From Notolepis coatsorum (lineage: Eukaryota > Chordata > Actinopteri > Aulopiformes > Paralepididae), in the NCBI GenBank assembly GCA_963971535.1, contig OZ020593.1:35250576-35314575 (forward strand): a stretch of DNA of 64,000 bases, in the 5' to 3' direction. The notes below the pieces were generated by a model. It did no database searches, was not told the DNA's origin, and saw nothing but the letters and a program-made list of their open reading frames with translations. The position numbers and the translations under genes are program-made. Positions within the stretch are counted from its first letter, which is position 1. The number at the start of each line of letters is the position of its first letter. Below, piece after piece: positions 119 through 60,087 of this stretch.

Positions 119-2520
119 CTGCTGCTACGTCTGCTGACTCTGGCCAGTTGGTGAAGCTGACCACCTTGGTGGCACACAGCAACCCGTCACTGACGTCCTG
201 GAACCGGTCGGTCAGACTCTCCTGTAGCTTGTCAAGCATTTTCTCCTGTGAAGTGACGATGGTCTTGCTCCACTTGCTGTCACTTCTGGTCAGTGGAATT
301 CCCTCATAGCTGTTGGCCATTGTGGCTTTCATCATGGGCCCTTGTCTGAAGATAAAAGACTAATTTTACTATTTACATTTCTGAATTCACATTTCACTCA
401 CACAATCATTTCTCTTAATTCTCTTAAGGTACACATTTATTTTGCAGCTTAAATAAACATACCTGGTTTTGTACTTCTTAAGTACTGCCTGTGTTGAGCA
501 CAAGGAGCTGTGTGCCTCCGCTATGGTGACAGTGGACCTCTGCAGACAGGCAGACAGGCTGCTCAGGTGTGTGAGTGTGTCATGCAGGAAGCCACAGAAG
601 CGGACAACAGCAGCATCCCAGGCAGTACTGTAGTAGCCTCTGGCCTTGGCCTGCTGGGCACCTCTAACATTTTGGGCATCAGGAGATTGAATCTGAAATA
701 CATTAAGAACAAAGACATACAAATAAACAATTAATTGCTGTGGGGGGGGGGGGGGGGGGGGGGGTATGGCAGATTTGATCAATGCATAAAACATGGAAAC
801 ATGTTACTAATTCTAAGCATGTTTGTTGTTATTTACTTTATTTATATTTATTTTAGAATACTGTTTTGGAGTATTAATTTTTGTTAAGAATATAGGACAG
901 GCATATATAAGCATTATGCTTCAGTCTGTACCTTTTCAGTCACTGTAAAATCAAATATTGTTAAATGATGGTGTATATTGCATTGTGTGAGATGATGACT
1001 GAATAAACTACTACTACTACTACATTACATATTTATGTTAACTTTTGGAGTACTACTTAGCATAGAAATCTAGAGCCACTACCTGTTCCAAGTGCTGGAC
1101 AAGCCCCTGGTAACCACGCAGGAAATGGTCCAGGGCACGCAGTAGGTGTCCCGCCAATTCTGGTGGGGACCAGTGCTGTGTGCCCAAGAGCCTGGAAGCT
1201 GTTTAGCAGGTTGGCCCTGTTCAGTGGACTGGTGTGGTAGAAGGTGTAGAGCCCACTGATGAGGTCTTCTACTTTCTGGAACATCACATTGGAGCGGATG
1301 GAATCGGCAAAGGCCAGTTCAAGGCGGTGTGCTATACAGTGGATCCCGATGATGTAGGCCTTGTCCCCCTTCAGCCGGCTGACCACACCGTTCATGGCTC
1401 CGGTCATCACAGCCGCTCCATCTGTTGCCAGAGCAACCAACTTGCTCCCCCACTCCTCACACACTCCATCCATGATGACACTGATGGCATTGGTTATGTG
1501 TGACGCGTCTGTCTTCTCCACTGACTTGATGCCAACAAACGTTGTCTCAATCTTGCCCTTGTGACAGAATCTGACATACACTAATTCCTCTTCGTCTGAC
1601 AAGATGGAGAGACATTTTATGTTTTTTTTAAATTCTCTCTGGCGTGGTTTCTCTCAGCCTCTGCAACATGGTGCATGAACTCTCTGGCCTGCTTCTCATT
1701 TCTATATGTTGAGCCCACAGCAATGCCTTTCTTTTCATCCAAACTGCAAAAATCCAACAAACAAACAAATTAATTCAATACAATGAATAAGGTTATCTAA
1801 TATACAGTATAGCTGCCTGGAACTATTCAAACATTTCAGTACATAATAACAGTATACTGTATAATGAGTTATTTGATTGAAAACACAACATAAACAAGGC
1901 TATGCTAAATAAATGACCAGATCAGTTCACAGTTGTGAGTCTCACGTTATTACAAGAATACTCTACATGCATTGTGCTTCATTAACAGGTTTCATATAGT
2001 AGTCATACTAGTGATACTAATTTAAGAAAATAAACATGTTCACTTACTTGCACAGCCACTCGAAGTCCGTAAAGGGTCTTGCCTTCTTTCCAATGGCATG
2101 TACAGTCCGAAACAGCATCTTCATTTTTGTGTTGGTCTGATCTGACATGGCTGTTAGCCTGGCCACAGAGGGTCTTGAAAGGAGAGGCTCCGATGCAATC
2201 CGGGACGCAGACATGGAGCCAATGTGACACTGGCTCTGTTCATGGTCATGAATTGCTTCCAGCTTCATAGATGTACTCCCAATAACAAAAGTGTTGTTTC
2301 TGTTTTTGTTTTTTGCATACTTGCGGCACACCAAACAAGTCATCACTCCAGCCCCAGCATCATACTGGAGCCAGTCTCTTGAGACACCGCTAACGGCATC
2401 TCCAAATTTCCACTCGTCTCTAAACTTTATTTTATTAGGTGGTCCCGCTCTCGCTGCCACTTCTTCCGCGGTGAGTTGTCTTTTTACCGGCCGGCTTACT
2501 CCTTTAATATGGTTCCACAT
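119..2520 (-). pseudogene. ZNF862-like hAT transposase gene, broken, 4 exons visible
   Basis: This encodes a DNA-binding zinc finger plus hAT transposase-like protein. Exons read on the minus strand are 2520-2048 (start codon, CxxC zinc finger near residue 63, ends at a GTAAGTG donor), 1743-1083, 692-463 and 345-119. Each junction has AG and GT in place and the reading phase carries across them. Exon 2 holds the first transposase block (LVYVRFCHKGK, then the ATDGAAVMTG region and the CIAHRLELA motif). Two lesions break exon 2. A frame change at the eight-A run (1622-1629) coincides with loss of about nine residues after LSD, and a second deletion/frame change near 1147-1152 follows RIGGT. Later exons match the family's helical region. 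The copy is therefore inactive although its splice sites are preserved. The 3' exons lie outside the window. Family assignment is from recognised motifs. Confidence 0.72.
742..764. repeat. poly-G tract (23 G)
   Basis: Uninterrupted G run inside the intron between exons 2 and 3 of the ZNF862-like gene. Length is uncertain, as for any long homopolymer in an assembly. Confidence 0.9.
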
Positions 2521-2977
2521 ACTGTATCAGTGATTAACGTTATTTAACGTTATTACATTTCGCTAACGTTGGCTACTCGGCGTTAGCTAGGTGGGCGTAA
2601 CGTTAGCTGAGCTCCCTACAGAGCAGAAGAAGAGCGTGTAGCGGATGTCACGTTGGTAAACAAGCCAACGAGATGACGCGCCGTGAGAGACGGGGTTGCC
2701 AAAAAAGGCGACTGTCGTAAAACCAAAACACACCGCAGTTTTTATAATTTTACATGACTATTTGGTACCCGCCACACGGCGGGCAGACCTCTCAGTGGCA
2801 CTCGCCAAACTTAAAATATGCCCGCCATTGGCGGGTGGCGGGCTCTAATTTTGTGCCCTGGCCACATATATGCGCGATTGTGTCTATTATGCGTAGAGCC
2901 CTGCATATGCATGTTCAAGTTCAAGTTAACATGCAAACCCATGTGTAGGAAAATAAACAGCTGCCTACCTGTCGCTG

Positions 2978-4380
2978 TCAGTGAGATCCCTGGCCCTGTT
3001 TTGCCTTGCTGAGCTCCGTTATCTGGGGGCTGTAGTTGGTCACTTTAAGCTGGACACATGCTTCGGAGTGGTCGGTTGTCAATCAACTACGGGAGGGGTT
3101 GAGCATGTACTTCATGTGCGAAAAGATCTGCTCACAGAGGTATGTTGACCCGAAGACCGTCAGCAAAGCCATTGCAACGTTCCGTAGATAGCTGAACTTC
3201 TCCGGTATAGATGTCCAGCAGGAGAAGATGCAGGCTCCGTGGTCTTTCACTGCCGTGGTTTCTAACTCTTTGCGTAGCTCTGCAAACTTGGCCACCCACA
3301 GGGTTGAACTCTTCAGCTCGATCAGCTGCATTTCTATGTCCTGTGTATCCAACCAGTCTATCAGAGATACATCCAATTCGTGTCCATCAAAGCTGTCTGG
3401 CTTGATCAAGAAGGAGAACATGGGTCCATACTTCTGAAAGTCCCCAAATCGTATCATGAACTCCGACTTGAGCTCGCTCATGTACTTGCATATTTCAGCG
3501 GTGCTGATGCTGTGCTGCGAGGACAGACTCAGTTCCCTTATGTGTCTGAAGTAGCGGAACGTGAAAGTAGCAACATCGTTGGAAAAGACTGATAGCTTGC
3601 AGACAAAAGCCGCCCATGTGTCAAACATGTCCAGCACAGTCTGCCTTGCGCCTTGCAGTCGTAGGTTGAGCTTGTTAAGGTGTCCAGTGATATCAGTGAG
3701 GAACATGAGTTTCACAACCCACTTCTCGTCCTCGAGCTCTGGGTAGTCTTGGCCCTTTTCAGCCAGGAAGGTCTTGATGGCACCAAAGCAGCCGACAAAC
3801 CTCTCCAAAACGTTCCCACAGCTGAGCCACCTTACTGCACAGTACAGCGGGATATCTTGATATGCACATTCCGTTTCCTCGAGCAGGGCCTGGAACTGTC
3901 GGTGTGTCAGAGAAGATTGCTTAACAATGAAGTTAACTATCTTTGACACTGTAGCCATAACCTCATTCAGATCCGACTTTGACATCTTTTCTCAGAGGTT
4001 TTCTTGGTGGATTATGCAGTGGAGTTTCATGATTGCGTGACCGACTTCTTCCTCGATAAATTTCACCGCTCCCTTCTGTTTCCCGACCATGGCGGGCATT
4101 CCATCTGTAGTCACTGCAAACATCTTCTTGATGTCAATACCTCTCTCCACAAACCTTGGCTGTCCTCACCTTTTGTTGTGCCAGTCATTGGCTTTAAACA
4201 GAAGAGCTCCTCTCTCAGAGTTGAGTCACAGTATCTGACCATGACTGCCAAACGTGGTATGTCGTTCATGTCCACGCTCTCGTCAAGCGCAATGCTAAAC
4301 ACTGGAGCATCTTTTAATCCAGCTGTTTGCTGTTCTGATATTTTCCTTATAAACATCCTCCTGTGCAATGCGCTCATCAA
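2978..4380 (-). pseudogene. GTF2IRD2-like (Charlie-type) hAT transposase, broken
   Basis: Minus-strand reading shows the hAT catalytic core: FSIALDESVDMND (first acidic residue), MKGTT-like GTTKGED, TTDGMPAMVGK (second acidic region), LHCIIHQE and AVRWLS. A helical insertion domain follows, then the C-terminal dimerisation segment (TVFGSTYLCEQIFSHMKYM) and a natural-looking stop at 2978-2980. Lesions are a frame change near 4155-4165, an in-frame TGA at 3992-3994 where the family has Cys after HQENL, and a TGA at 3083-3085 where the family has Arg. Clear reading continues in frame after each TGA. The longest intact block is 3083-3985. The N-terminal part is missing; at about 4362-4380 the sequence passes directly into a DUF4806 exon. 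No terminal repeats were found for this copy. Confidence 0.72.
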
Positions 4381-6884
4381 GGGTTCTCAGGTCATCCAGG
4401 GTGGAAAGTGGTAACATCGTAAATGGAACGCCATCGGGGACAAGTGCTGCTGCTGCTGCACCATTTTTTAGCAGTAAGGTGTGCATTTCCTTTATCATTT
4501 GATTAGTTGTTGCCACAGTAGTTAAAATCTCATGGAGAATAGCTGTAAAAAACAAACACACTTAACAAGTTAATATCTGAGATTTGGAAACACAGTAACA
4601 TCACTACAATAAACTCAAACCGGTCTACATATAAATCAGAAAATCTGACAGGTTTTAAAGAATGTATCCAGTCCAGATTATCTTAATTTGGAGGCCTAAC
4701 CAAAAGTAAGCACATCTAAAATGTCACAAAAACCATTACATAGGGAAATTGGGTGCAGAACTGTGGTAAACTAACGGTTCTGAACTGAGACACAAATATC
4801 CATTGTCTTGAGTCATAGTTCCCTATTTCGTGTCAAGGTCTCACCCCCCCAGATGCAACACTTTGAATGAGATGTACTGTGTAGTAGTAATTGCTGTAGA
4901 ACACTTACGATCACAGTCGGTTAGCATGGGCCAGGTACGGGGTGCCAGGCTAGGTGTGGTGGCAGCTAGTACGGATTGGCGATAAAGATGGAGAAAAGTA
5001 GGAGGGGACAGTTACAGTTAGTTAGATTGACAGTACACTGGTGTCATCACCGGTGTGGCTGTGCCACAGTGGATTTTTCAATACAGATATGCAACACTTT
5101 GAATGAGATTTACTGTGTAGTAGTAATTGCTGTAGAACACTTACGGCGATCACAGTCGGTTTCGGTTAGCCTGGGCCGGGTACGGGGTGCCACGCTAGGT
5201 GTGGTGGCAGCTGTAGGACGGATTGGCGATAGAGATGGAGAAAAGTAGGAGGGGACAGTTACAGTTAGTTAGATTGACAGTACACTGGTGTCATCACCGG
5301 TGTGGCTGTGCCACAGTGGATTTTTCAATACAGATATGCAACACTTTGAATGAGATTTACTGTGTAGTAATAATTGCTGTAGAACACTTACGACTTAGCC
5401 TGGGCCGGGTAGGGGTTGCCAGGCTAGGTGTGGTGGCAGCTAGTACGGATTGGCGATAGAGATGGAGAAAAGTAGGAGGGGACAGTTACAGTTAGTTAGA
5501 TTGACAGTACACTGGTGTCATCACCGGTGTGGCTGTGCCACAGTGGATTTTTCAATACAGATATGCAACACTTTGAATGAGATTTACTGTGTAGTAGTAA
5601 TTGCTGTAGAACACTTACGAGTTAGCCTGGGCCGGGTAGGGGTTGCCAGGCTAGGTGTGGTGGCAGCTAGTACGGATTGGCGATAGAGATGGAGAAAAGT
5701 AGGAGGGGACAGTTACAGTTAGTTAGATTGACAGTACACTGGTGTCATCACCGGTGTGGCTGTGCCACAGTGGATTTTTCAATACAGATATGCAACACTT
5801 TGAATGAGATTTACTGTGTAGTAATAATTGCTGTAGAACACTTACGACTTAGCCTGGGCCGGGTAGGGGTTGCCAGGCTAGGTGTGGTGGCAGCTAGTAC
5901 GGATTGGCGATAGAGATGGAGAAAAGTAGGAGGGGACAGTTAGTTAGTTAGATTGACAGTACACTGGTGTCATCACCGGTGTGGCTGTGCCACAGTGGAT
6001 TTTTCAATACAGATATGCAACACTTTGGATGAGATTTACTGTGTAGTAGTAATTGCTGTAGAACACTTACGACGATCACAGTCGGTTTCGGTTAGCCTGG
6101 GCCGGGTACGGGGTGCCACGCTAGGTGTGGTGGCAGCTAGTACGGATTGGCGATAGAGATGGAGAAAAGTAGGAGGGGACAGTTACAGTTAGTTAGATTG
6201 ACAGTACACTGGTGTCATCACCGGTGTGGCTGTGCCACAGTGGATTTTTCAATACAGATATGCAACACTTTGGATGAGATTTACTGTGTAGTAGTAATTG
6301 CTGTAGAACACTTACGACGATCACAGTCGGTTTCGGTTAGCCTGGGCCGGGTACGGGGTGCCACGCTAGGTGTGGTGGGAGCTGTAGGACGGATTGGCGA
6401 TACGATTTGCGGTGCAGGGGGAAAATGCCCTTGAGGTTGCTCATCCTCATCGTCACTTGAGAGCAATCTTTTTGTGCCTCTATTGAACAAAAGTACTAGT
6501 GTTGGCCATTTCATAATGTACAAACAGTACTAACTAAGTCTCTGCTTCAGAAAGGTTTAGCCCAATAAGTACACATATCATCTAATGAAATATTAAGTGT
6601 TTTATAGACAACTTTTGCCTTTCACCCATAAAGTGGGTGAGTTAACCTGATGCTGCCAGATGGTTTGTTTCACAGAACCATCTGGGTACACTCCACATTA
6701 AAAATAGGGAAGCGGCTGTGTGCCTAGGTTACTACTGTACCTAATTTATGTATTAGAGTGTATTCAATTTATTACCTTCTCTTCCTTTTTTTATGCGATG
6801 GACGTGTGTCCTCCTCATCATCAGTCTGAAGGTCAGACGTCAACAGTGCCTTCGGGAGCAGCAGCCGTGCCTCACTAAATGTAT
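4295..6884 (-). pseudogene. DUF4806-type gene with tandemly multiplied exon, 3' truncated
   Basis: I read a spliced minus-strand gene. Exon 6884-6776 encodes SEARLLLPKALLTSDLQTD and an acidic/basic tail, resembling the segment upstream of DUF4806 domains. Exon 6479-6316 continues in phase (KRLLSSDDEDEQ, then Pro/Thr-rich). Six more copies of its 3' part follow (6136-6071, 5893-5846, 5666-5619, 5439-5392, 5210-5145, 4965-4909), each with AG before and GTAAGTG after. The last exon starts at 4542 and encodes the beginning of a DUF4806 domain (PFTMLPLSTLDDLRTLDERI). It then runs into hAT sequence at about 4370 and stops at 4295. The phase is kept through all nine exons. Function of DUF4806 proteins is unknown. 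No N-terminal exon was found between 6885 and 7640. The loss of the domain's C-terminal half suggests the gene is dead or makes a truncated product. Confidence 0.58.
4850..6402 (-). repeat. Tandem array of exon-plus-intron units, 7 copies
   Basis: Units of about 225-247 bp are repeated head to tail. Donor-to-donor spacings are 236, 247, 227, 227, 225 and 245. Each unit holds one small minus-strand exon of 48, 57 or 66 nt and about 179 nt of intron. The intron has a CTAACTAAC branch-point-like motif, a pyrimidine tract and a CTAG or CTACAG acceptor. Length differences between units are mostly exon differences in steps of 9 nt. Copies are nearly identical in the intron part, so the array is young or homogenised. 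The plus-strand open frames of 67-95 codons in each unit are shadows. Confidence 0.9.
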
Positions 6885-6941
6885 CTGGGATTAAAAAAAA
6901 TAATCATTAATGCAATTCATTAAGTAAATCTAATGCCAGTG

Positions 6942-7141
6942 CCGGGCCAGAGCCGGTTTATCTTTGGCGAGCCCGAGTCGGCTCTGCCCCGGCAACCAGA
7001 GCCAGGCCAGAGCCGGTTTATCTTTGGCGAGCCCGAGTCGGCTCTGCCCCGGCAACCAGAGCCGGGCCAGACCCAGTTTATCTTTGGCGAGCCCGAGTCG
7101 GCTCTGCCCCGGCAACCAGAGCCGGGCCAGATCCGGCTCAT
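6942..7141. repeat. GC-rich 60-bp tandem repeat, about 3.3 copies
   Basis: The unit contains GAGCCCGAGTCGGCTCTGCC and CCAGAGCC(A/G)GGCCAGAGCCGG with very few differences between copies. Open frames in several phases are a by-product of the 60-bp period. It sits just upstream of the DUF4806-type exons on the minus strand. Confidence 0.9.
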
Positions 7142-7380
7142 CGTTGGTGTGCCGTGCCGGTCATGTGCCGACCGGTAGCCGGAATCGGGCCGAGTATGCT
7201 GGCCACCTGGGCTTCTATAACATGTTGATACATTTTATGTAAATTAATACTACGGTATGTGCTGCTGAGACCAAGGACCACAATGGAAATAAGTCTGACT
7301 TTTTTGTGCTATCCTTGATAATTTTAGGATGCATGACTTGTTGTTGATGAAGACTGTCCTCCTCCCTTAGCCTTAAATAG

Positions 7381-10328: not shown

Positions 10329-11515
10329 TTAACTCTTTAATTGCCAGACCCGAGATATCTCGGGTTAACTCGCCATGCGTTGGACGCCAGACCCGAGATA
10401 TCTCGGGTTTTGGTAGTTTTTTATTATTAATATTTTTTTTATATCTACGTTTTCTCCCATTTTTCTATTTTTCTCCCATCCCAATTTCGTGTTATCCAAT
10501 TCTACCCTCCCCTGTCTCGAACGTTAGGCCATGCCTCCCATTGGTCGGCTGCAATGTGGACGAAGCCTTGCATCACGTGTCCCCTCCGGTACACGAGGAG
10601 GCAGCCGTCGCATCTTTTCACCTGCACAGCGCGATCTCTCAGTGGCGAGGAGTAGCACGTGGGAGGCTCACGCTGCCCCCGTCACTTCCTGATTCTGCTG
10701 CGCAGGCGCACCAACCGACCTGTAAGAGTCGCTGTCCACAACGTCCGATCCCCACCCACCAGCTTCCCACCCCTAACACTGCCAATTGTGTTAGTATGAA
10801 CGACCAGCCAAGCTGGTAGCAATGCCGAGAGCTGGGCTCGAACCCAGCATCTCCTGCATTAGTGGCGAGCGCCTTGCCCACTGCGCCACTTAGCCGCCCT
10901 GTTTTTTCTTTTATTCAATATTTTTATTCATTATTCATCCACTGACCTCGGTGTTGCCATAGGAAAGGATTTTGAGATTGCCAAAGTGCAATACCGGCTG
11001 CATCCTGCCAGATGGCAGTGTCGCCCACCCTTTGAAACCTTATATCTAACTCTGTGTTACACTCAAATGTCTCCGGGCGCTATATTTAGATGGAGACGAG
11101 TAAGTCGCTTCATCCGACCACTTCAAAACGCAACTGGCACACTCTATCCATAAGTTGTGCCAAATTATGTCGGGGACCAGATGGAAACCAATACTGGAAA
11201 TCGCGATCAGACAATTGGAATATTCTTTTTGGAATACACCCGACCTCAGGTAAGGACTATCTGACATCAATTTCAGCTTGATCCAACAATGTTTTCATAT
11301 CGATCCAGCTGATCGGCTTCTGTAGTGTTCGAATGCCGTTACTGGCCATCAAAGCATTAAAAAAACGTTCATGATGAAACATAATACCTATTATATACAT
11401 TTGATTCCAGGCAAGAAACGCCAACGCTTATAGTAGAATACACGTAGCGCCCTATAACTCAGCGGTTCAGGAATTATCCCGGATCACTCCTAAACTATAC
11501 TTATATTCACCACGG
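10329..11515 (+). mobile_element. TTAA element family D, copy D1, carrying a SINE
   Basis: The left end is TTAA 10329-10332 followed by CTCTTTAATTGCC. Two perfect 18-bp palindromes ACCCGAGATATCTCGGGT lie at 10348-10365 and 10391-10408. A SINE is inserted at 10431-10899. The donor-like CAGGTAAGGACTAT (11249-11262) matches copies D2, D3 and D4. The right end is lost where a LINE fragment begins at about 11516. Confidence 0.68.
10431..10899 (-). mobile_element. tRNA-derived SINE, copy 1
   Basis: Read on the minus strand from 10899 it has a tRNA-like head with A box TGGCGCAGTGG and B box GGTTCGAGCCC. A body of about 380 bp shared with copies at 28489-28974, 30497-30751 and 45405-45873 follows, ending in a T/A-rich tail. 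The tRNA-like head is the internal RNA polymerase III promoter. Confidence 0.85.
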
Positions 11516-12027
11516 GATAACGCACGAATGTAGGCTGATCTCGGACAACGACGAGAAGGCCTACCGGGAGGAGGTTGAGGTACTGGAACGCTGGTGCCAG
11601 GACAACAGCCTTCTCCTGAACATTGGTAAAACCAAGGAGCTGATTGTGGATTTTAGGAGGAGACAGCAGGAGACACACACACCACTGAGGATAAACGGGG
11701 CTACCGTGGACAGGGTGAGCAGCTTCAAGTACCTGGGGGTCCACATCTCAGAGGACCTGACATGGACAACACACATAGACTCAGTCGTAAAAAAGGCGAA
11801 GCAGCGCCTCTACCACCTGAGACAGTTAAGGAAGTTCAGAGTATCTGGGAAGATACTCCAGTATGCCCTACTTTGTTTACTTGTTTATTGCACAATGTCG
11901 CTCTTGGTTGGATTCTTATTATATATTATTACTATTGTATTATGCACATCGTTGCGGGCAAGACCCCCCGCATTTCACTGTATACCTGTATGCCGTGACA
12001 AATAAAACTCTTGTATCTTGTATCTTG
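11516..12027 (+). pseudogene. 5'-truncated LINE, reverse transcriptase fragment
   Basis: In-frame sequence from about 11555 reads ERWCQDNSLLLNIGKTKEL and SFKYLGVHISEDLTWTTHI, the block after the catalytic palm in fish LINE reverse transcriptases (L2/CR1/Rex-like). The frame then jumps after RKFRVSGKILQ to 3' UTR sequence ending in CTTGTATCTTGTATCTTG. The catalytic motifs are absent. It abuts TTAA element A4 directly. Confidence 0.75.
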
Positions 12028-13216: not shown

Positions 13217-13358
13217 CGCTTTCACCACAAGGAAGTGCCTCGGTAGTACCCCACTTGACGTGTCGTTGATAAGTTGAAAAGAGTTGTGACTAGGTTTACA
13301 TTGTGCCTAACCTTTTTCTTCTCTCACTTGTTTATATAAGAAAAAGGTTTGGGTCATA

Positions 13359-15032
13359 ATGTATTCCGCGGAGAGTAGACCCGCTAGACCTACTCTTCAC
13401 CACCGATTCTCCATTCCCGCCTCCGTCGTGCGTTCCGGTGCTGGGCTGTTGCCACTCTCGTGGTTGCCGACCCAGCCCGGGAGACTGCCGGTGGATAGTT
13501 TTCCTCACCGACGAGCCGAGGGTTCGGAGCCGTCGCTCCGGCGATGGCCTGATCTCGACTCTGGTTCCTCTGTTTCTGGGGAATCGCCCGTTGATGAACG
13601 GGGGATTGTCTTAGAGCCAGGGGATTTGCGACGAAAACTTTTTGCGTCTGCTCGCTCACGTCGTCACATGGTGGCGTGCAGACGCGAACGGCCTGGGTTT
13701 GGGGAATTGCTGGAGACCAGCGAGGCCGCGTCCGACTCTGGATTTCTGATGGAAACTGAAGACTTCATGGAGGAGGCGGACGGGTTCTTGTATGATGGTC
13801 CCGTGGAGGAGAGTATCCCTCCTCCGGAGACCCCGGGGTGGGGGGAAATGGCTCCACGGGGCGCCTTGTTCGAGGATGTCGGGGAACCACCTTGGCCTCA
13901 TCAACAGGATGCCCTACTGTCGGCCGCATCGGATTGTGGCTCCTTGACCAGTCGCAGCCTGCTGTATGCGAGGGATGCGGGGTCGGTGGAGGAGGGTCCG
14001 CAGGGGGAACTGCGGGCCTTGTTTCCCGAGCTCATGGCGGTAGCCGCCGCTGCAAACGGTGTGCCGCTGCCGCAGCCATTGCCTGCTCCTGTCCCTGATG
14101 ACCTCATAGGCCATCCCTGGCAGCGTCCCCCGGTGAGAGGGGTGGACGTTGTCTACCCATTTTTCCCATCGATGGGGGCCTATGTTCGTCGGGGCCAGGC
14201 GGTCTCCAACATCATGGGACTGACTCCCGCCTACGTACCAGTTACGCGGGTGTCGGGGTTGGTCAAAGGTATGGGGGAGGGCGTACCTCGGCTTGACAAT
14301 CCGATGGCCGCGCTCCTCTGTCCGGATATGGTGTGGGAGCCCCTATGCAAGCCGGTCCTCCAGGGGAGGTCGGCTAGGCGATTGGCTTATTGGGGTGACC
14401 AGTCATTTATCGCCGGTACACAGTCGCTGGCTGCGGCTTCTAACATCGCCCACCTGGCTAGATTTGTATCGGGGATAATGATGGGCGGCGCGGATCTGAA
14501 CGAGGTGAGGTGCGATCAGATCACCCAGGCTGCGGGAGCTGTGCTGCACCTCTCCCAGGTGCTAGCCATAGCCATGGGTAAAGTGCGCGCCCTGGCCACC
14601 CTGGGCCAGCGTCACCTTTGGCTGGAGCAGGCTCGTGTACCTGAGAAGAAGAGAGCCCCTCTTCTGACGGCCGACCTCTCCGACGCTGGCCTGTTCGGGA
14701 AGGCCCTGCTATTGATGACCTCAACATGCAGAGAGATGGCAGAGGAGAGATCCATCCTCCAACCCCATTTTCCGCCTCCCGTCCTTGCCGGTGGGGGCAG
14801 AAGGCTTCCGCGACGTCGAGCTGTCTCCGTCGCCGCTACCACTGCTCCCGCCGCCGCTGCTGGCCCTGCCAAGAGGGCTAGGAGACGAGGCGACGCTTCA
14901 GCCACCGCCGGCCCATCCCAGACCGGAGGAGACGGTAGGGAACGTCGTGTCCAGCAGACTGTAAACTACCGTCCCTCCGGGGCTCCCCGGGGTGGCCAGA
15001 CTCGAGCGGCGCGAGGTGGCAGGCGCCGCTGA
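13359..15032 (+). CDS. DIRS gag-like protein, 557 aa
   Basis: Single uninterrupted ORF starting 143 nt inside the left inverted repeat. The N-terminal third is Ser/Arg/Pro-rich, the middle is acidic, and residues about 240-480 hold the conserved-looking part. Segments such as QITQAAGAVLHLSQVLAIAM, QRHLWLEQARVPEKKRAPLL and DLSDAGLFGKALLLM resemble the helical region of fish DIRS gag-like proteins. The C terminus (about 490-557) is strongly basic (RRLPRRRAVS, KRARRRG, GGRRR), as expected for nucleic-acid binding. It probably forms the particle around the element RNA. The intact length in an element lacking all enzymatic genes is notable. Identification rests on motif memory only; alternatives are another retroelement gag or a co-opted gag. 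Confidence 0.65.
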   Translation: MYSAESRPARPTLHHRFSIPASVVRSGAGLLPLSWLPTQPGRLPVDSFPHRRAEGSEPSLRRWPDLDSGSSVSGESPVDERGIVLEPGDLRRKLFASARSRRHMVACRRERPGFGELLETSEAASDSGFLMETEDFMEEADGFLYDGPVEESIPPPETPGWGEMAPRGALFEDVGEPPWPHQQDALLSAASDCGSLTSRSLLYARDAGSVEEGPQGELRALFPELMAVAAAANGVPLPQPLPAPVPDDLIGHPWQRPPVRGVDVVYPFFPSMGAYVRRGQAVSNIMGLTPAYVPVTRVSGLVKGMGEGVPRLDNPMAALLCPDMVWEPLCKPVLQGRSARRLAYWGDQSFIAGTQSLAAASNIAHLARFVSGIMMGGADLNEVRCDQITQAAGAVLHLSQVLAIAMGKVRALATLGQRHLWLEQARVPEKKRAPLLTADLSDAGLFGKALLLMTSTCREMAEERSILQPHFPPPVLAGGGRRLPRRRAVSVAATTAPAAAAGPAKRARRRGDASATAGPSQTGGDGRERRVQQTVNYRPSGAPRGGQTRAARGGRRR

Positions 15033-22744: not shown

Positions 22745-23100
22745 CGTTAATATAGAGAGGATTGATATGAATTGGATAATGCAGGCTGTTAGTAGAGGCA
22801 GAACTAGCGAGCCGTTAATATAGAGAGATACGTTATTTCGATTAATATGAATTGGATAATGCAGGCTGTTAGTAGAGGCAGAACTAGCGAGCCGTTAATA
22901 TAGAGAGATACGTTATTTCGATTGATATGAATTGGATAATGCAGGCTGTTGAGGATTGATATGAATTGGATAATGCAGGCTGTTAGTAGAGGCAGAACTA
23001 GCGAGCCGTTAATATAGAGAGATATGTTATTTCGATTGATATGAATTGGATAATGCAGGCTGTTAGTAGAGGCAGAACTAGCGAGCCGTTAATATAGAGG
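22745..23100. repeat. 80-bp tandem repeat, about 4.5 copies
   Basis: The unit contains GAATTGGATAATGCAGGCTG, AGAGGCAGAACTAGCGAGCC and GTTAATATAGAGAG. Starts are at about 22767, 22847, 22927, 22960 and 23041; one unit is only 33 bp (internal deletion). Confidence 0.88.
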
Positions 23101-39714: not shown

Positions 39715-40865
39715 TAATAATAATATAATAATAATAATAAAATAATAATAATAATAATACACTTTATTTGTATAGCACCTTTCATACAGAACTGCAGCTC
39801 AAAGTGCTTCACAACAGAAAAAGACAGGCATAAAATGAGCACATAAAAGACATAAAATCACAGTTTTTCACATTGGGATCTAACATCCCAACAGGCCACC
39901 TTGTGTATGGTTTGATTCGGTTTTAAATATACAATAATAAAAGTGTAAGATAAAATAGACAGAGTAAATAATGCAATAGTGCAGTGCAATAAAATTGTAG
40001 AATAGAATAGATAAAAAATATATTTTAGTGCAATAAAATAGTTCTGGATTACTGTTCAACAGTTCAAACTGTCGTCTTTACCTTCTCTGTTTGGTATCGA
40101 CAGTTTAAAACTTGACGGCCTTCCCTCCTGTTTTATACCCACTTTGACCCTTTGAACCTCCCGCCCAGGGCAAACCTCCCTCTCAGGGCGCAGTTCCCTC
40201 TCTTAGGGTGCAGTTCTAGGCCTGGGTCCTACACAGTTTTAAAGCCTGACAGTCTCTTGTTTGATACCCACACAGTTTAATACCCGACAGTTTTGAACCT
40301 GTAATAAAAAGCAACAGACAGAGTAAAATAATACAGTGCAATAAAATAGTAGAATAGAAGAGAGTAAAATTATGCAATAGAATGGACAGAGTAAAATAGT
40401 GCTACAGTACAATCAACTGCGGAGTGTATTAAAAGGCTATGGTGAAGAGGTACGTTTTTAGCTTATTTTTGAAAATAGATCTAGCTTCCCTAATGTCCAT
40501 AGGTAGTGTGTTCCATAACTTTGGTGCATAGTTTGCAAAGGCTGCATCCCCGATTTTCCTTAGACTGTGGCTTGGAACCTTCAATAGACCAGTAGTAGAT
40601 GATCGAAATGTTCTAGGAGGCACATAGTTGACTAGAGAATTTGCAATGTAGCTTGGTCCTGTTCCGTTTAGTGCTTTATATATAAGGAGGAGCACCTTGA
40701 AATCAATTCTAAATGTTACCGGAAGCCAGTGTAGGTTAGCTAATACTGGACTGATGTGGTCTCTCCTCTTGGTTCTAGTTAGTAGCCTAGCTGCTGAGTT
40801 TTGAATGAGTTGGAGTCGTTCTGTGTTATTTTTTGGGAGGCCAGTGAGGAGTGCATTAATGTAAA
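39679..40865 (-). pseudogene. LINE fragment: ORF2 C terminus and 3' UTR
   Basis: The minus strand from about 40865 reads INALLTGLPKNNTERLQLIQ, NSAARLLTRTKRRDHISPVL and NLHWLPV, ending FKNKLKTYLF at 40429. This is the region after the catalytic palm of L2/CR1-like reverse transcriptases. A 3' UTR follows and ends in GTGCTATACAAATAAAGTG and an (ATT)n tail (39679-39760). The element is 5'-truncated and the RT catalytic motifs are absent. Upstream sequence from 40870 is unrelated. Confidence 0.75.
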
Positions 40866-40929
40866 TGTTATGGTTTGAAACCACCCCAATAGCACAACAC
40901 AAGACAGGTATGAGAGTAGCCAAAACAGG

Positions 40930-41938
40930 GCATTATTTATTATATAACAAAAAGCGGCACAGTCCCTTTAAGGGAGAACACAAAAAACACTAGAGTCCAT
41001 GAAATATGAAAACTGCGGCACTGTGCCTTTAACGGGCGAACAGGCTAAGGGACCAGGGGCACTGGAGAGGGGGACAGGGACAGAGGCCCGGAGAGGCGGG
41101 CTAGAGACAGGGACAGAAATCCAGCGGCGGAGGCCGGGCACAGGGGCCCGATGGCGGAGGCCGGGCACGGGGGCCGGGACCCGACGGCGGAGGCCGGGCA
41201 CGGGGAGCCGGGGTCCGAGGGAGAACACGCCATCCCCCCGTGGAATAGGGAGCGATGGCGAGCCGGGGTCCGAGGGAGAACACGCCATCCCCCCGTGGAA
41301 TAGGGAGCGATGGCGAGCCGGGGTCCGAGGGAGAACACGCCATCCCCCCGTGGAATAGGGAGCGATGGCGAGCCGGGTTGACGTCTGGAGTGGGAACACT
41401 GGAGTCCTCCCGTAGAGAATTAGAGAGCGAAGGCGGTGTCCCACTCCAGGCACACGGCGACAGGTGGTGATGGCTGGCACATCGTCTCACGCCGGAGACG
41501 CGGCAGGTGATGGTAGCAACAAGATGGCACGACGTCTGGAGTGAGAACATAGGGATCCTCCCGTGGAAGTATAGAGAGCGAAGACGATGTCCCACTCCAG
41601 GAAACGGCAGTAGATGGTAGCGTACAGAACCAGCGTACAGAACACAGAACGACCCGACAAGGACTGGAGGGGAGTCTGCAACCTAAGTACTCTCCCGAGC
41701 TGATCGCAAACTCCCAACAGGTGCGTGAAGGTAGAGGAACAAGAATGTCCAAAGGTGGGGGCTGGTGAAGAGTAGGAGACAGGGAAAAGTCCTCGCAAGG
41801 GTGGGGGCTGGTGAAGAGTAGGAGACAGGGAAAAGTCCTCGCAAGGGTGGGGGCTGTTGAGGAGAGTAGACAGGGAAAAAAGGTCCAGGGACAGGCGAAT
41901 CCTCACAGTAAACATGAATCATTTTAATATAATGCACC
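40930..41938. other. GC-rich repeat-bearing block of unknown origin
   Basis: Contains a 55-bp tandem repeat (41205-41375, three units with ACACGCCATCCCCCCGTGGA), a 46-bp repeat (41754-41870, two and a half units with GTGGGGGCTGGTGAAGAG) and looser repeats of GGCGGAGGCCGGGCACGG (41120-41200). Long open frames on both strands follow from the composition. It may be the 3' region of a retroelement, but no protein motif supports this. Confidence 0.5.
41205..41375. repeat. 55-bp tandem repeat, 3 copies
   Basis: Units start at 41205, 41260 and 41315 with GAGCCGGGGTCCGAGGGAG and are nearly identical; a partial fourth starts at 41370. Confidence 0.92.
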
Positions 41939-46154: not shown

Positions 46155-47552
46155 ATTTACATTTACATTTACATTTAGTCATTTAGCTGACGCTTTTATC
46201 CAAAGTGACTTACAAGTTCTGTACGACAAGCCATCAGGAAGGGCACAACTCTATCAGCTGAGTAACAATGTTCATCAAAGTGTTGAGTGCTACAGTGTAG
46301 GTTAGTTTATTAGGACAAGTGCATGACAGTATGGTTAGTTAGGGTTAGATTTTTTTTTTTTTTTTTTTTTTTCAGATAATGGTTGAAGAAGTGCGTCTTT
46401 AGTCGACGGCGAAAGATTGGACGTGTTTCGGCTGTCCTAACTGGGGTGGGTAGTTCATTCCACCATTGTGGGGCAAGGACTGAGAATAGGCGACTTCTCT
46501 TTGATGACCCTCCCGGAGCTTGGATAGGAGTAGGTCTGAGGCGGCCAGAAGATGCAGAGCGTAGGGTTAGAGACCATTGACCGGAGGTAGGCGGGAGCAG
46601 TTCCCTTTGCCGCACGGTATGCTAGGTCGAGGGCCTTGAAGCGGATTCGTGCAGCAATGGGGAGCCAGTGCAGGTCCCTAAGAAGTGGGGTGACATGGGC
46701 CGACTTCGGTAGGTTTGAGATCAGGCGGGCCGCTGCGTTCTGAATGAGTTGAAGAGGCTTAGTGGCAGTGGCCGGGAGGCCAGCGAGCAGTGCGTTGCAG
46801 TAGTCGAGGCGGGAGATGACTGTTGATTGGACGAGGAGTTGGGTGGCTTCTTTTGTCAGGAAGGGGCGGATCCTTCTGACGTTGCTCAGGAGGAATCGGC
46901 AGATTCTGGTTGTCCCTGCGATGTGAGCAGAGAAGTTCAACTGGTCGTCGAGGACAACACCAAGGTTCTTGGCGGTCGGGGACGCGGTCACAGCTGCATT
47001 CTCGACTGTGATGGAAAGGTCGGTCAGGGGGGAGGATTTGGCCGGCAGGTGGAGCAATTCTGTTTTGCTTAGGTTCAGTTTGAGGTGGTTGGTCGTCATC
47101 CAGGCGGAGATGTCGGACAGACAGGCCGAGATCCGCTCAGAGACGTGGATATCTGAGGGAGGGAAGGAGAGGAAGAGTTGAGTATCGTCGGCATAACAGT
47201 GGTAGGAGAAGCCATGAGACATGATAATGTTACCCAGTGATTTAGTGTAGAGGGAGAAGAGAAGGGGTCCTAAAACCGAGCCCTGGGGGACACCCGTCCG
47301 CAGGGGGCGGGTGGCCGACAGGGTCCCTCTCCATGACACTTGGTAGGAGCGGTCATTGAGGTATGATGACAACCATGTCAGCGCAGAGCCAGCCACTCCC
47401 ATTCCTGCGAGGGCCGCGAGGAGGATCTGGTGGTTGACTGTGTCGAAGGCTGCAGATAGATCTAGGAGAATCAGGACAGAGGAGAGGCCTTTCGCTTTTG
47501 CTAAGTGAAGTGCCTCTGTGACCGCAACCAATTGCATTGGTCCGGATGGCAA
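46155..47552 (-). pseudogene. L2-type LINE, reverse transcriptase part, 5'-truncated
   Basis: The 365-codon minus-strand frame (46455-47552) holds the RT palm motifs: LDLSAAFD at residues 30-37, GVPQGSVLGP at 87-96 and YADD at 120-123. Then come NLSKTELLHLP, LQLIQNAAARLI and LHWLPI. A frameshift near 46560 moves the C terminus (PQWWNELPTPVRTAE) to another frame, and the N-terminal endonuclease is missing. The 3' UTR ends with GGATAAAAGCGTCAGCTAAA and ATGTAAATG repeats at about 46155, the usual L2 end. It is dead but recent-looking. Sibling 3' fragments are at 49683-49857, 53397-53512 and 63670-64000. Confidence 0.88.
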
Positions 47553-48184
47553 AATCCTGTACTGTATCTACAAAAAAACCCGATCTCAAGAAGGTGCTGA
47601 ATGAGCTCAGTGGCAATTTTCCATGTCTGGTCAATGTTAGCATGGTGTTATTCACCGTCAAAGATAAAGAAAGAAAAAAAAGAAAAACAATAATTGATAT
47701 TCTCCTTTGGTTCATTACAATTTACTCAAGCATAGTAACATACACAATATTTATGACACTGGGAATACATTCCCTGAGGTCCATACATATCCCTAGATAC
47801 CAAGGACATGCAAATGGACCTTGTAGAAGTGGAGCAATCTTCAATTTACTTAGGTATGTACTTTTAGGCAAATTTTCTGAAAATATAGCTCAGGCTTAAG
47901 AGGTTAAAGTTGAATTGATCATTTACTGACGGCATCCAAAAGGCTGAACACGTAAACAGAAGACCTAAACTTTCAACACAACACTGGGTTCCTGGGACAC
48001 TGTTTGAAGCTCGAAATCTATGTAAAAATTTACAGTTTCTCTGTTTATTTAGTTAACAAACTTATTTTAGGCTTATGTTTGTTATAATGGCATAAGATCA
48101 TTTTAAGAATTACACGAATAGTATATTTTGTAACTCAACTGCCGGCTTTGCAAATGCCCCCAAAACCATACAGTGCACCTTTAA

Positions 48185-49857: not shown

Positions 49858-51268
49858 GCTGGTGAGAGGGTGAGTCTGGAGAGGATGGATCCTTCTGTGG
49901 TTGGTACCATCCGGAACGCGCATGCTCCTTCCACTATCGTGGGTTACGCGGGTAAGTGGCGTATTTTCCAAGAGTGGTGTAAGGCCACCCTCTTGTGAAG
50001 CGTTTCCTGCTCGGCGTTGACCCCTTAAGCCGGTGAAACTCTCTTTGGCTCCGAGCTGGGATCTTCAATTGGTCCTCGGTCGGTTGTCCTTGGCCCCGTT
50101 TGAGCCTCTTGAGCAAGCGCTGTTGGAACGGCTGTTGTTCGAAGACTTCGTTCTTGCTGGCCACCACCTCCGCTAAAACGCGTGGGTGTGCTTTGTGCTC
50201 TCTCGGTACGGCCAGAGTGCCTGTCTTTCGTTCCGATAGCGGTGCCACTCTGCGGCCTAATCCAGCCTTCGTGCCTAAAAATATCTGGAGTGCTTCCGCT
50301 CCAGGGATATTATGGTTCAGGCGTTTCATCCGCCTCCTCACGCTAGTGAGTTGGAGGCGGGCCTTCACCTGTCATGTCCGGTCCGGGCTTGGGGGTTTAC
50401 CTCAGCCGTACTCAGGGCCTCAGGGCTACCGTTCAGTTGTCTGTTACGGTGGCTCTCGTGCTGGTAAGGCACTGTCGAAACAGCGCCTGTCCCATTGGTT
50501 GTGCGAGGGCATTGCACTTGCTTCACGTTGGCCGGGTTGGCTCTCCCTAGGGGCGTCAGGGCGCACTTCACTCGTGGGGTGGCGGCCTCTGCCGCTCTGC
50601 TGGGTGGGGCCTCGGTGGAGGACATCTGTGCTGCAGCTTCATGGTCCTCCCCGGGTCCCTTCGTAAGGTTTTATCTCATGGACATGACCGGGGGTTCTGT
50701 CTCCCAGGCGGTTCTGAGGTCTGTGGCCTTCTGCTTCCCGTCCTTGGTGGGGTAGCAGGGGTGTGTGGGTGTGGGCCACAATGTGTTGTGTCACACGTGG
50801 TTCCGCCTGTGCTGTGTGTTCAAGAGGTTCTAGTTCCCTCTTGCTCGCACTCGGGTGGAGTTGACTGCGCCCCCTCTTCATTAGGAAGGATGGGGTGACG
50901 GGACTCCCCTCCCCCCTGATGTGGGCTTACGGGTCCTCAGGGGGTGCATTTGTCGGGCCTCGCGTCCGCTCTACCCCATATCTCGGTATGGCTTAAGAGC
51001 GGGACGCGATGCCAGTACGAATATATAACGACAGGTTATGTATATAACCTAGTTATATGAGTACTGGCTAAGCGTCCTGCTCTTAGCGTGCCCTGAGTTC
51101 CCTTGGGGAAACTTTTCTTTGGAAACGATTTTTTCCGAGGAAGAGTGAGTGGTGGCAGGTGCTGGGTGTATTTTGTTTTATTCGTTGATGGAGTACACTA
51201 GGTACATGAGATGAGGTATATCTCGGTATGGCTTAAGAGCGGGACGCTTAGCCAGTACTCATATAACT
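49858..51268 (+). mobile_element. Second DIRS family, 3' end only
   Basis: Contains a tyrosine recombinase remnant, an internal complementary region (about 50978-51096) and the right terminal repeat (about 51216-51268, GGTATGGCTTAAGAGCGGGA). In the complementary region, AGTTATATGAGTACTGGCTA is the reverse complement of the right tip. The preceding part should match a left end that is not in the window. Confidence 0.72.
49862..50757 (+). pseudogene. DIRS tyrosine recombinase, degraded
   Basis: In shifting frames: APSTIVGYAGKWRIFQEWC (N-terminal core-binding region), LVLGRLSLAPFEPLE, then LLATTSAKTRG (start of the catalytic domain). LSKQRLSHWLCEGIALA follows, then GVRAHFTRGVAASAALL and VEDICAAASWSS, ending FVRFYLMD. 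The HxxR-like AHFTRG and the final Tyr are visible. At least three frame changes and several stops make it non-functional. Its family counterpart is absent from the DIRS element at 13-18 kb. Confidence 0.68.
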
Positions 51269-56214: not shown

Positions 56215-56770
56215 TTAAAGGAAAACTCTAACATTTTGGGAAATTAGCTTATTTGCCATCTACCCTGGAGTTAGACAAGATACATACCTTTTTCTTCTCT
56301 GTGCATGCAGTAGGAGTAGGAAGACGTTGGGAACTATGCTAATGGAGGAACCTACTTCCAGTGACTGACGCTAAGCTAGGCTAACGGTGCGCGTCTTCCT
56401 ACTCCTACTGCATGCACAGAGAAGAAAAAGGTATGTATCTTAACACTCCAACATTTTGGGAACCCTGGAGTTAGACAAGAAGATGCATACCTTTTTCTTC
56501 TCTGTGCATGGAGTAGGAGTAGGAAGACGTTTGGAACTAGGCTAATGGAGGAACCTACTTCCAGTGACTGAGGCTAAGCTAGGCTAACGGTGCGTGTCTT
56601 CCTACTCCTACTGCATGCACAGAGAAGAAAAAGGGTATGCATCTTCTTGTCTAACTCCAGGGTAATAATAATAATACATCCATTTTATATAGCGCTTGCA
56701 GGTGCTCAAAGACGCTTTAGGGTAGATGCCAAATAAGCTAATTTCCCAAAATGTTGGAGTTTTCCTTTAA
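56215..56770. mobile_element. TTAA MITE with two internal palindromic units
   Basis: TTAA at 56215-56218 and 56767-56770 with inverted ends of about 50 bp (AGGAAAACTCTAACATTTTG). Inside are two units, each an inverted pair of about 43-bp arms (56283-56326 with 56392-56435; 56486-56530 with 56597-56640). A short (AAT)n and TATATAGCGCTTGCAGGTGC insert lies near the right end. Confidence 0.85.
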
Positions 56771-59040: not shown

Positions 59041-59307
59041 CAGAGAGAGAGAGAGAGAGACACATTGGAAAGAAATTGAAATGCTATTTGGCCCTAAACA
59101 GAGAGTACACAGTGGCAGAATACCTGAGCACTGTGACTGAAGATCCTTGAGCACAGCCTAGCCATCGAGAAAGGCCGCCATAGGCAGACTGTGTGTGTTA
59201 GAAAGAGAGAGAGAGAGAGAGAACATGTGTGTTTGTCATGTGTGTGTGTGTTAGAGAGAGACTAGAGCATGTATGAGAGATTCAAAAGGACAAAGATCAA
59301 CACTTAA

Positions 59308-59350
<43 letters not shown>

Positions 59351-59603
59351 ATTGGAAAGAAATTGAAATGCTATTTGGCCCTAAACAGAGAGTACACAGT
59401 GGCAGAATACCTGAGCACTGTGACTGAAGATCCTTGAGCACAGCCTAGCCATCGAGAAAGGCCGCCATAGGCAGACTGTGTGTGTTAGAAAGAGAGAGAG
59501 AGAGAGAGAGAACATGTGTGTTTGTCATGTGTGTGTGTGTGTTAGAGAGAGACTAGAGCATGTATGAGAGATCCAAAAGGACAAAGATCAACACTTAAAT
59601 CCA
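59041..59603. repeat. Direct duplication of about 250 bp, period 287
   Basis: CACATTGGAAAGAAATTGAA starts at 59061 and 59348. Copies end at CACTTAAATCCAA. They differ mainly in GA and GT repeat lengths. Confidence 0.92.
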
Positions 59604-60087
59604 ACAAGAAGAGGGTCTATACCAGAGAAACCAAAGCAGCAAGGAGCCAATGGCCAACATCAGCTAAATAGGCTAGCCAGGTACTGTGACACCAGGCCAC
59701 ACACAGCTTTGGCCAACGGCCCAACGCTACCCAAGCGACCAAGACATTCACACACAGCACATGTCGTATCTCCAAATGTTGTGAAGTAGCATATGTTTTG
59801 CCTGGAAAAGAACATCGTTATTAACAAAACATTCGGGAGGGGAAGGAAGGAAGAGTGGGGTAATGTCATGACATTTTCATTAATCTTACCTGCACAAAAG
59901 GAACGCAGGGCGAAAGGCCGCAACACAGGTCTCCACGTTGACGAAAGGCCTCTCGCTGTCGGGACAAATAAGCTATGGCCAGAGCCTTGTCATGGTGCAG
60001 GCCCGACTACATCTTCTGTCAAAGATGATGTCGTAGTCAGAGTGCCAGTCTGCCAGAACCCCCTGCTATTCTCAAGGCTAACTGATA

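Follow-up and report, generated by a model that had tools for sequence, protein, structure and literature searches.

The stretch of DNA analysed here, called the window, comprises 64,000 nucleotides of Notolepis coatsorum (contig OZ020593.1, forward-strand positions 35,250,576 to 35,314,575). On its minus strand, at 4850-6402, it carries an array of six complete units of 225-247 bp, placed behind an exon of 164 nt that is termed exon A (6316..6479). Exon A is first acidic and then Pro-rich, and the core that is repeated in the array derives from its last 66 nt. Each unit consists of an intron followed by a core: unit 2 (6071..6315) has an intron of 179 nt and a core of 66 nt (6136-6071), unit 3 (5846..6070) an intron of 177 nt and a core of 48 nt (5893-5846), unit 4 (5619..5845) an intron of 179 nt and a core of 48 nt (5666-5619), unit 5 (5392..5618) an intron of 179 nt and a core of 48 nt (5439-5392), unit 6 (5145..5391) an intron of 181 nt and a core of 66 nt (5210-5145) and unit 7 (4909..5144) an intron of 179 nt and a core of 57 nt (4965-4909), all on the minus strand. 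An earlier sequence-only reading had described seven tandem, in-phase copies of one small exon, and its coordinates and core lengths (66, 66, 48, 48, 48, 66 and 57 nt) were matched exactly; the first of the seven cores is, however, the end of exon A (6479-6316) and not a separate exon. The array was detected independently by Tandem Repeats Finder, with a period of 227/245, and the 17-mer GTGTTCTACAGCAATTA, which follows each donor, has exactly seven matches on the minus strand at 4888-6311, where 0.18 would be expected by chance with up to three mismatches allowed. Two or three deletions (18 nt; 6 and 3 nt), copied afterwards, distinguish the copies in the window from one another. RNA folding of one window unit gave no signal of structure (z -0.19), and a 30-base piece of an array unit had no match in viral contigs.

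Each core in the window ends at the donor GTAAGTGT, and an AG acceptor and this donor border all six inner units. The branch-like run CTAACTAAC was located in 6/6 complete introns, which end in TACTAG or CTACAG, and the splice signals of these units are intact. The cores of the six units are entered and left in phase 1, and the complete introns, with lengths of 177, 179 and 181 nt, span all three phases, which provides the contrast that any argument from phase needs. Upstream of exon A lies exon 2 (6776..6884, minus strand; 109 nt, phase 1 in and phase 2 out), which was found in 11 loci. Downstream, a last intron (4543..4908, minus strand) has about 55 nt in common with the unit intron and is unlike the unit in its remainder; it is followed by exon B (4342..4542, minus strand), which holds the first half of a DUF4806 domain and on its own scores 15.6 bits in Pfam, below the cut-off of 25. 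The phase of the array had been said to fit both exon A (start 6479) and exon B (start 4542), and it does: once exon 2, exon A, all copies and the start of exon B are joined, the reading is open, with no stop.

When the 3.42-Gb genome was searched with the unit, 267 matching pieces were obtained and 40 of 115 candidates were scored. The array unit was found at at least 40 separate places on many contigs, the window included, of which 33 were read (20 loci of 10 kb, 12 short pieces only and the window). It sits inside a family of DNA transposons that carry the inverted ends CCCAGGTGGCC at both ends, the right end being sharp (...GGCCACCTGGG) and the left one beginning with CCCAGGTGGCCAGC.... 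The right tip has 549 matches in the genome (up to two mismatches) and the left tip 493 (up to one mismatch), with none for the reversed control in either case. Both tips were read in two elements, of 16.4 and 12.5 kb, and target duplications of 2 bp, CA/CA and AT/AT, were seen in 2/2 elements for which both flanks were read. Ends that start with CCC and 2-bp duplications are the features by which animal CACTA elements, the TRC elements, are defined in the available portion of PMC1636069, and both are present here. Over the main 3' block, one copy, L028, agrees with the other copies at 90-99%, which suggests a recent movement of the family; short terminal pieces are 83-86% alike in three loci.

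Fuller copies have an upstream transposase-like frame (1612-3664 in L034), parts of which are common to other elements and which we take to resemble CACTA transposases. The upstream frames of L034, a single copy with a seemingly shifted frame, gave no match to Transposase_21 (PF02992), and the only place found genome-wide for this profile (C6:153135334) is not linked to any element read. Since the Transposase_21 test failed in the copy that was read, the element is termed TRC-like and is not filed as a member of TRC. In a shorter class of elements (L025 and L026), the N-terminal transposase-like exon precedes the first unit, a deletion within the unit intron having brought the two together.

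The gene that contains the array was read in L028, where exon 1 (ATG at 3335) and exon 2 precede exon A and the array, and exons B and C follow; their phases match. This copy has the beginning of exon 1 twice, at 2525 and 3335, and the upstream version contains 6 additional nt at one place. When exons B and C of L028 were joined, DUF4806 (PF16064) was matched with 34.7 bits (2.3e-8), above the curated cut-off of 25. PF16064 had no match when the genome itself was searched with this profile; the division of the domain between two exons is the probable reason. DUF4806 is given as a subtype of BEN in the accessible part of PMC11075544, and the consulted section of a paper on Hydra tabulates it beside transposon domains. 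We infer a BEN function and repeat binding for the DUF4806 protein, which would probably bind the subterminal repeats of the element.

The copy of the transposon in the window is broken. Its left tip CCCAGGTGGCCAGCATACTCGGCCC lies at 7187..7211 (minus strand), next to a flank that ends ...TAGAAG, and is common to two elements, E25 and E26; a subterminal 60-bp tandem repeat was found at this left end by Tandem Repeats Finder (6936..7147, minus strand), and E26 has a similar repeat at its own left end. Homology to the window copy stops at 4340-4379 in 20/20 of the 10-kb loci and begins at about 6940 in 11/20, later in the remaining ones, and beyond both limits the 20 loci are still alike among themselves. 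Exon 1 is missing from the window copy, in which the left end is fused straight to the sequence preceding exon 2. The second half of DUF4806 is missing as well, exon B running at about 4341 into reading frames (3083..4340, minus strand) that are foreign to the transposon and absent here from the 20 other loci compared. These frames, which gave no match in Pfam, are presumably hAT-like. With exon 1 lost and exon B broken off, the DUF4806 gene at the window locus is dead. Two hAT-like gene remnants were noted in this part of the window (1057-2526 and 3083-4386, minus strand); they include zf-C17orf113 pieces, weak DUF659-like ones and, separately, a frame truncated at its 5' end that is fused to exon B.

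Across the family, 138 units with both borders read were available from the 33 loci. Their cores are 60 nt (73 units), 48 nt (49), 66 nt (6), 63 nt (5), 57 nt (3), 61 nt (1) and 47 nt (1) long, and those of 136/138 are divisible by three; the two exceptions are a one-base insertion in L011 and a unit of L043 that has lost its acceptor. The introns fall into 15 length classes covering all three phases, or 14 when the 189-nt class, an artefact of this L043 unit (L043_6), is removed; the unit was left out of the variant counts and kept among the two exceptions. Units were detected by the likeness of their donors (up to five errors), and decayed ones are therefore under-counted. Because units are not independent, indel events were counted instead, by eye: 6/7 events in the core are in phase (3, 18, 6, 3, 3 and 6 nt, the exception being +1), against 4/14 in the intron (Fisher p 0.021 one-sided, 0.024 two-sided), where events in the pyrimidine tract are ambiguous and four were scored (3, 4, 6 and 3 nt). 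One of the core events, a 6-nt deletion of GTACCC, was taken from the first cores, which lie outside the 138. The frame-keeping signal from independent events is modest. Slippage between micro-repeats (CCA, CGT, ACCGA, CCCG) that lie 3 or 6 nt apart can explain four of the six in-phase indels of the core, and the bias could hence stem from the mechanism as well as from selection.

These counts bear on the proposal that a neutral satellite would not keep its length in multiples of three in every copy. The observation extends to nearly all units read in the 33 loci and the comparison of core with intron speaks for it; the window copies are nevertheless not seven independent facts, and the argument is weaker than claimed, given the slippage-like events and a core without amino-acid constraint. 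The variation in copy number that had been expected was found between copies of the element, with 2 to 11 donors per array among the 21 loci that were fully read.

As judged from sequence, the array is probably a variable-number exon-plus-intron repeat in the DUF4806 gene of a CACTA/TRC-like transposon, which would lengthen a linker when it is spliced in. Pre-mRNAs would include some or all of the units, each contributing 16 to 22 residues (PATTPSLATPTRPRLS or similar), and the added residues would extend a Pro/Thr/Ser-rich linker between the acidic region and the BEN-like domain. The latter would bind the subterminal repeats, as TNPA serves En/Spm. A more specific form of this reading can be put forward only tentatively: the exon-intron units (2 to 11 donors) may be spliced in series, and each transposed lineage may in this way encode a DNA-binding protein with its own linker length, possibly tuning the pairing of the ends.

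The alternative that survives best, a serious one although we do not consider it likely, is that the array is an intronic minisatellite without a coding role, exon A being spliced directly to exon B and the units looking like exons only as copies of the end of exon A. It agrees with the lack of any detectable purifying selection on the amino acids of the core among distinct core substitutions: 23 nonsynonymous and 8 synonymous changes were counted with deletion ends masked (1.17 times neutral) and 27 and 9 without masking (1.22 times), the unmasked counts including letters misaligned at deletion ends. The core is also more variable than the intron, with 0.48 variants per site when masked (0.58 unmasked) compared with 0.32. 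At this depth, the ordinary exons are weakly constrained too (exon 1, 0.67; exon 2, 0.38; exon B, 0.97; exon C, 0.80), and the unrepeated part of exon A gave 1.57 in the same comparison. The coding frame is free of stops in 39/39 distinct cores and both other frames contain a stop in 39/39 (L043_6 dropped), but this is uninformative, since an open frame is inherited from exon A by descent and only 2 of the 189 point changes possible in the core consensus create a stop. A minisatellite would likewise accommodate the micro-repeat origin of four of the six in-phase indels and the lack of a spliced retrocopy in the genome, where the unit-unit junction had a single match, which contained a mismatch (47 for the reversed control), for a pattern that covers cores of 48, 57 and 66 nt and not the commonest, 60-nt kind, and the junction into exon B had none. 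What it explains poorly is that cores are multiples of three in nearly all units while introns span all phases, that the event test gave a p of 0.021, and that acceptor, donor and branch-like run are intact in nearly all units read: the donor GTAAGT in 168/171, CTAACTAAC in 137/138 and the first AG after it at the same position in 137/138. Compared with the neighbouring intron, the splice signals are not clearly better conserved.

It has also to be considered that the units are used singly or never, as alternative splice choices regulating the amount of DUF4806 protein or the choice of isoform, and that their number tunes splicing and not the length of the linker. Many identical donors and acceptors would then compete, and both SmTRC1 and, as recounted in the same paper, maize Spm yield several proteins by alternative splicing, according to the available text of PMC1636069. 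Keeping length in threes would, however, be needless if units were rarely joined, and this possibility is judged unlikely. A functional host gene with a spacer that varies in length between individuals, which the sequence-only reading had in effect assumed and with which the open spliced reading from exon 2 through exon A and all units to the start of exon B would agree, was rejected as highly improbable, the locus being instead a transposon fragment that has its tip at 7211, lacks exon 1, ends in an exon B cut at about 4341 and is homologous to copies at many places.

Returning to the exon-plus-intron repeat, its dynamics can be followed in the differences between units. Aligned bases differ by 1.7% between neighbouring units, by 3.2% between units of the same locus and by 3.9% between loci, and on the basis of this gradient the arrays seem to grow locally and then travel to new places. 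The 48-nt type lies on the 5' side in 13/15 arrays that hold both 48-nt and longer cores; the exceptions in order are L016, which is mixed, and the window, where a 66-nt unit comes first.

An origin of the exon may also be proposed. The motif TATCGCCAATCCGTCCTACAG is coding in exon A, and the same motif or a variant of it straddles the acceptor in the units. If one partial tandem duplication began midway through exon A (about TATCGCC, 6402) and extended into the intron that follows, CTAACTAAC and a pyrimidine tract would come to lie upstream of the exonic ...TACAG; the latter would become an acceptor, and a single step would have yielded a new exon. As the exonic AG and the donor of exon A both cut after the first base of a codon, the new exon would be symmetric (phase 1-1) and could be added with the frame unbroken. 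With such a common origin, the phase match of all copies would amount to one event, having a one-in-three chance, that was then copied. Unequal exchange would later have altered the number of units between lineages of the element. A length change of 2 nt (CTACAG vs CTAG) occurs just before the AG and multiples of three after it, which agrees with the AG as the border of the exon.

Maize En/Spm has subterminal repeats near both ends that are bound by TNPA. The present element is similar to En/Spm (TNPA, TNPD) in that a transposase gene is accompanied by a smaller, second protein and that repeats lie close to both ends, and differs from it in its CCC rather than CACTA ends, in its DUF4806/BEN-like second protein and in its repeated exon array. 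The case also adds a BEN-like second gene to what is found in a TRC/CACTA-like element, a testable parallel to TNPA. In arrays of the Dscam type, tandemly duplicated exons with their own splice sites belong to a host gene and are used in a mutually exclusive manner, whereas here the units are nearly identical and their number varies between copies of the element. As a rule, the birth of exons by partial duplication and changes in exon number are deduced from one-off, ancient events in host genes. Here, hundreds of ends of one family that seems to have moved recently are present in one genome, and array states were read at 33 loci; in such a family, the creation of exons, the filtering of lengths by phase and changes in copy number could be counted directly.

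Among described transposons, SmTRC1 has a region of tandem repeats on the 3' side of its transposase frame and spliced multi-exon transcripts, and it shares with the present element the CCC ends, the 2-bp duplications, common truncated copies, tandem repeats and a multi-exon gene; the available portion of the paper describes neither a DUF4806 gene nor a repeated exon (PMC1636069). A further difference is that Transposase_21 was undetected in the frames of the present element that were read. In hobo of Drosophila, the coding tandem repeat TPE varies in number between copies and reportedly affects transposition, as stated in the accessible part of PMC4807377; there, a 9-bp repeat is present three to nine times in the transposase frame, while the repeat described here consists of exon plus intron and belongs to a second gene. 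No array of exon-plus-intron units within a transposon gene, nor anything equivalent, was found in the portions consulted of the literature on DUF4806, EnSpm in fish, BEN/transposase and tandem exon arrays.

Other repeats occur elsewhere in the window. Two long frames on the plus strand (13311-15032 and 50037-50666; 573 and 209 aa) are presumed to resemble proteins of DIRS-type retrotransposons, and 11448-12005, 40429-40932 and 46455-47567 are taken to be fragments of reverse transcriptase frames of a LINE-like type. Tandem duplications with 94-98% matches lie at 56262-56645 (203 bp), 59042-59604 (287 bp) and 22760-23064 (80/114 bp).
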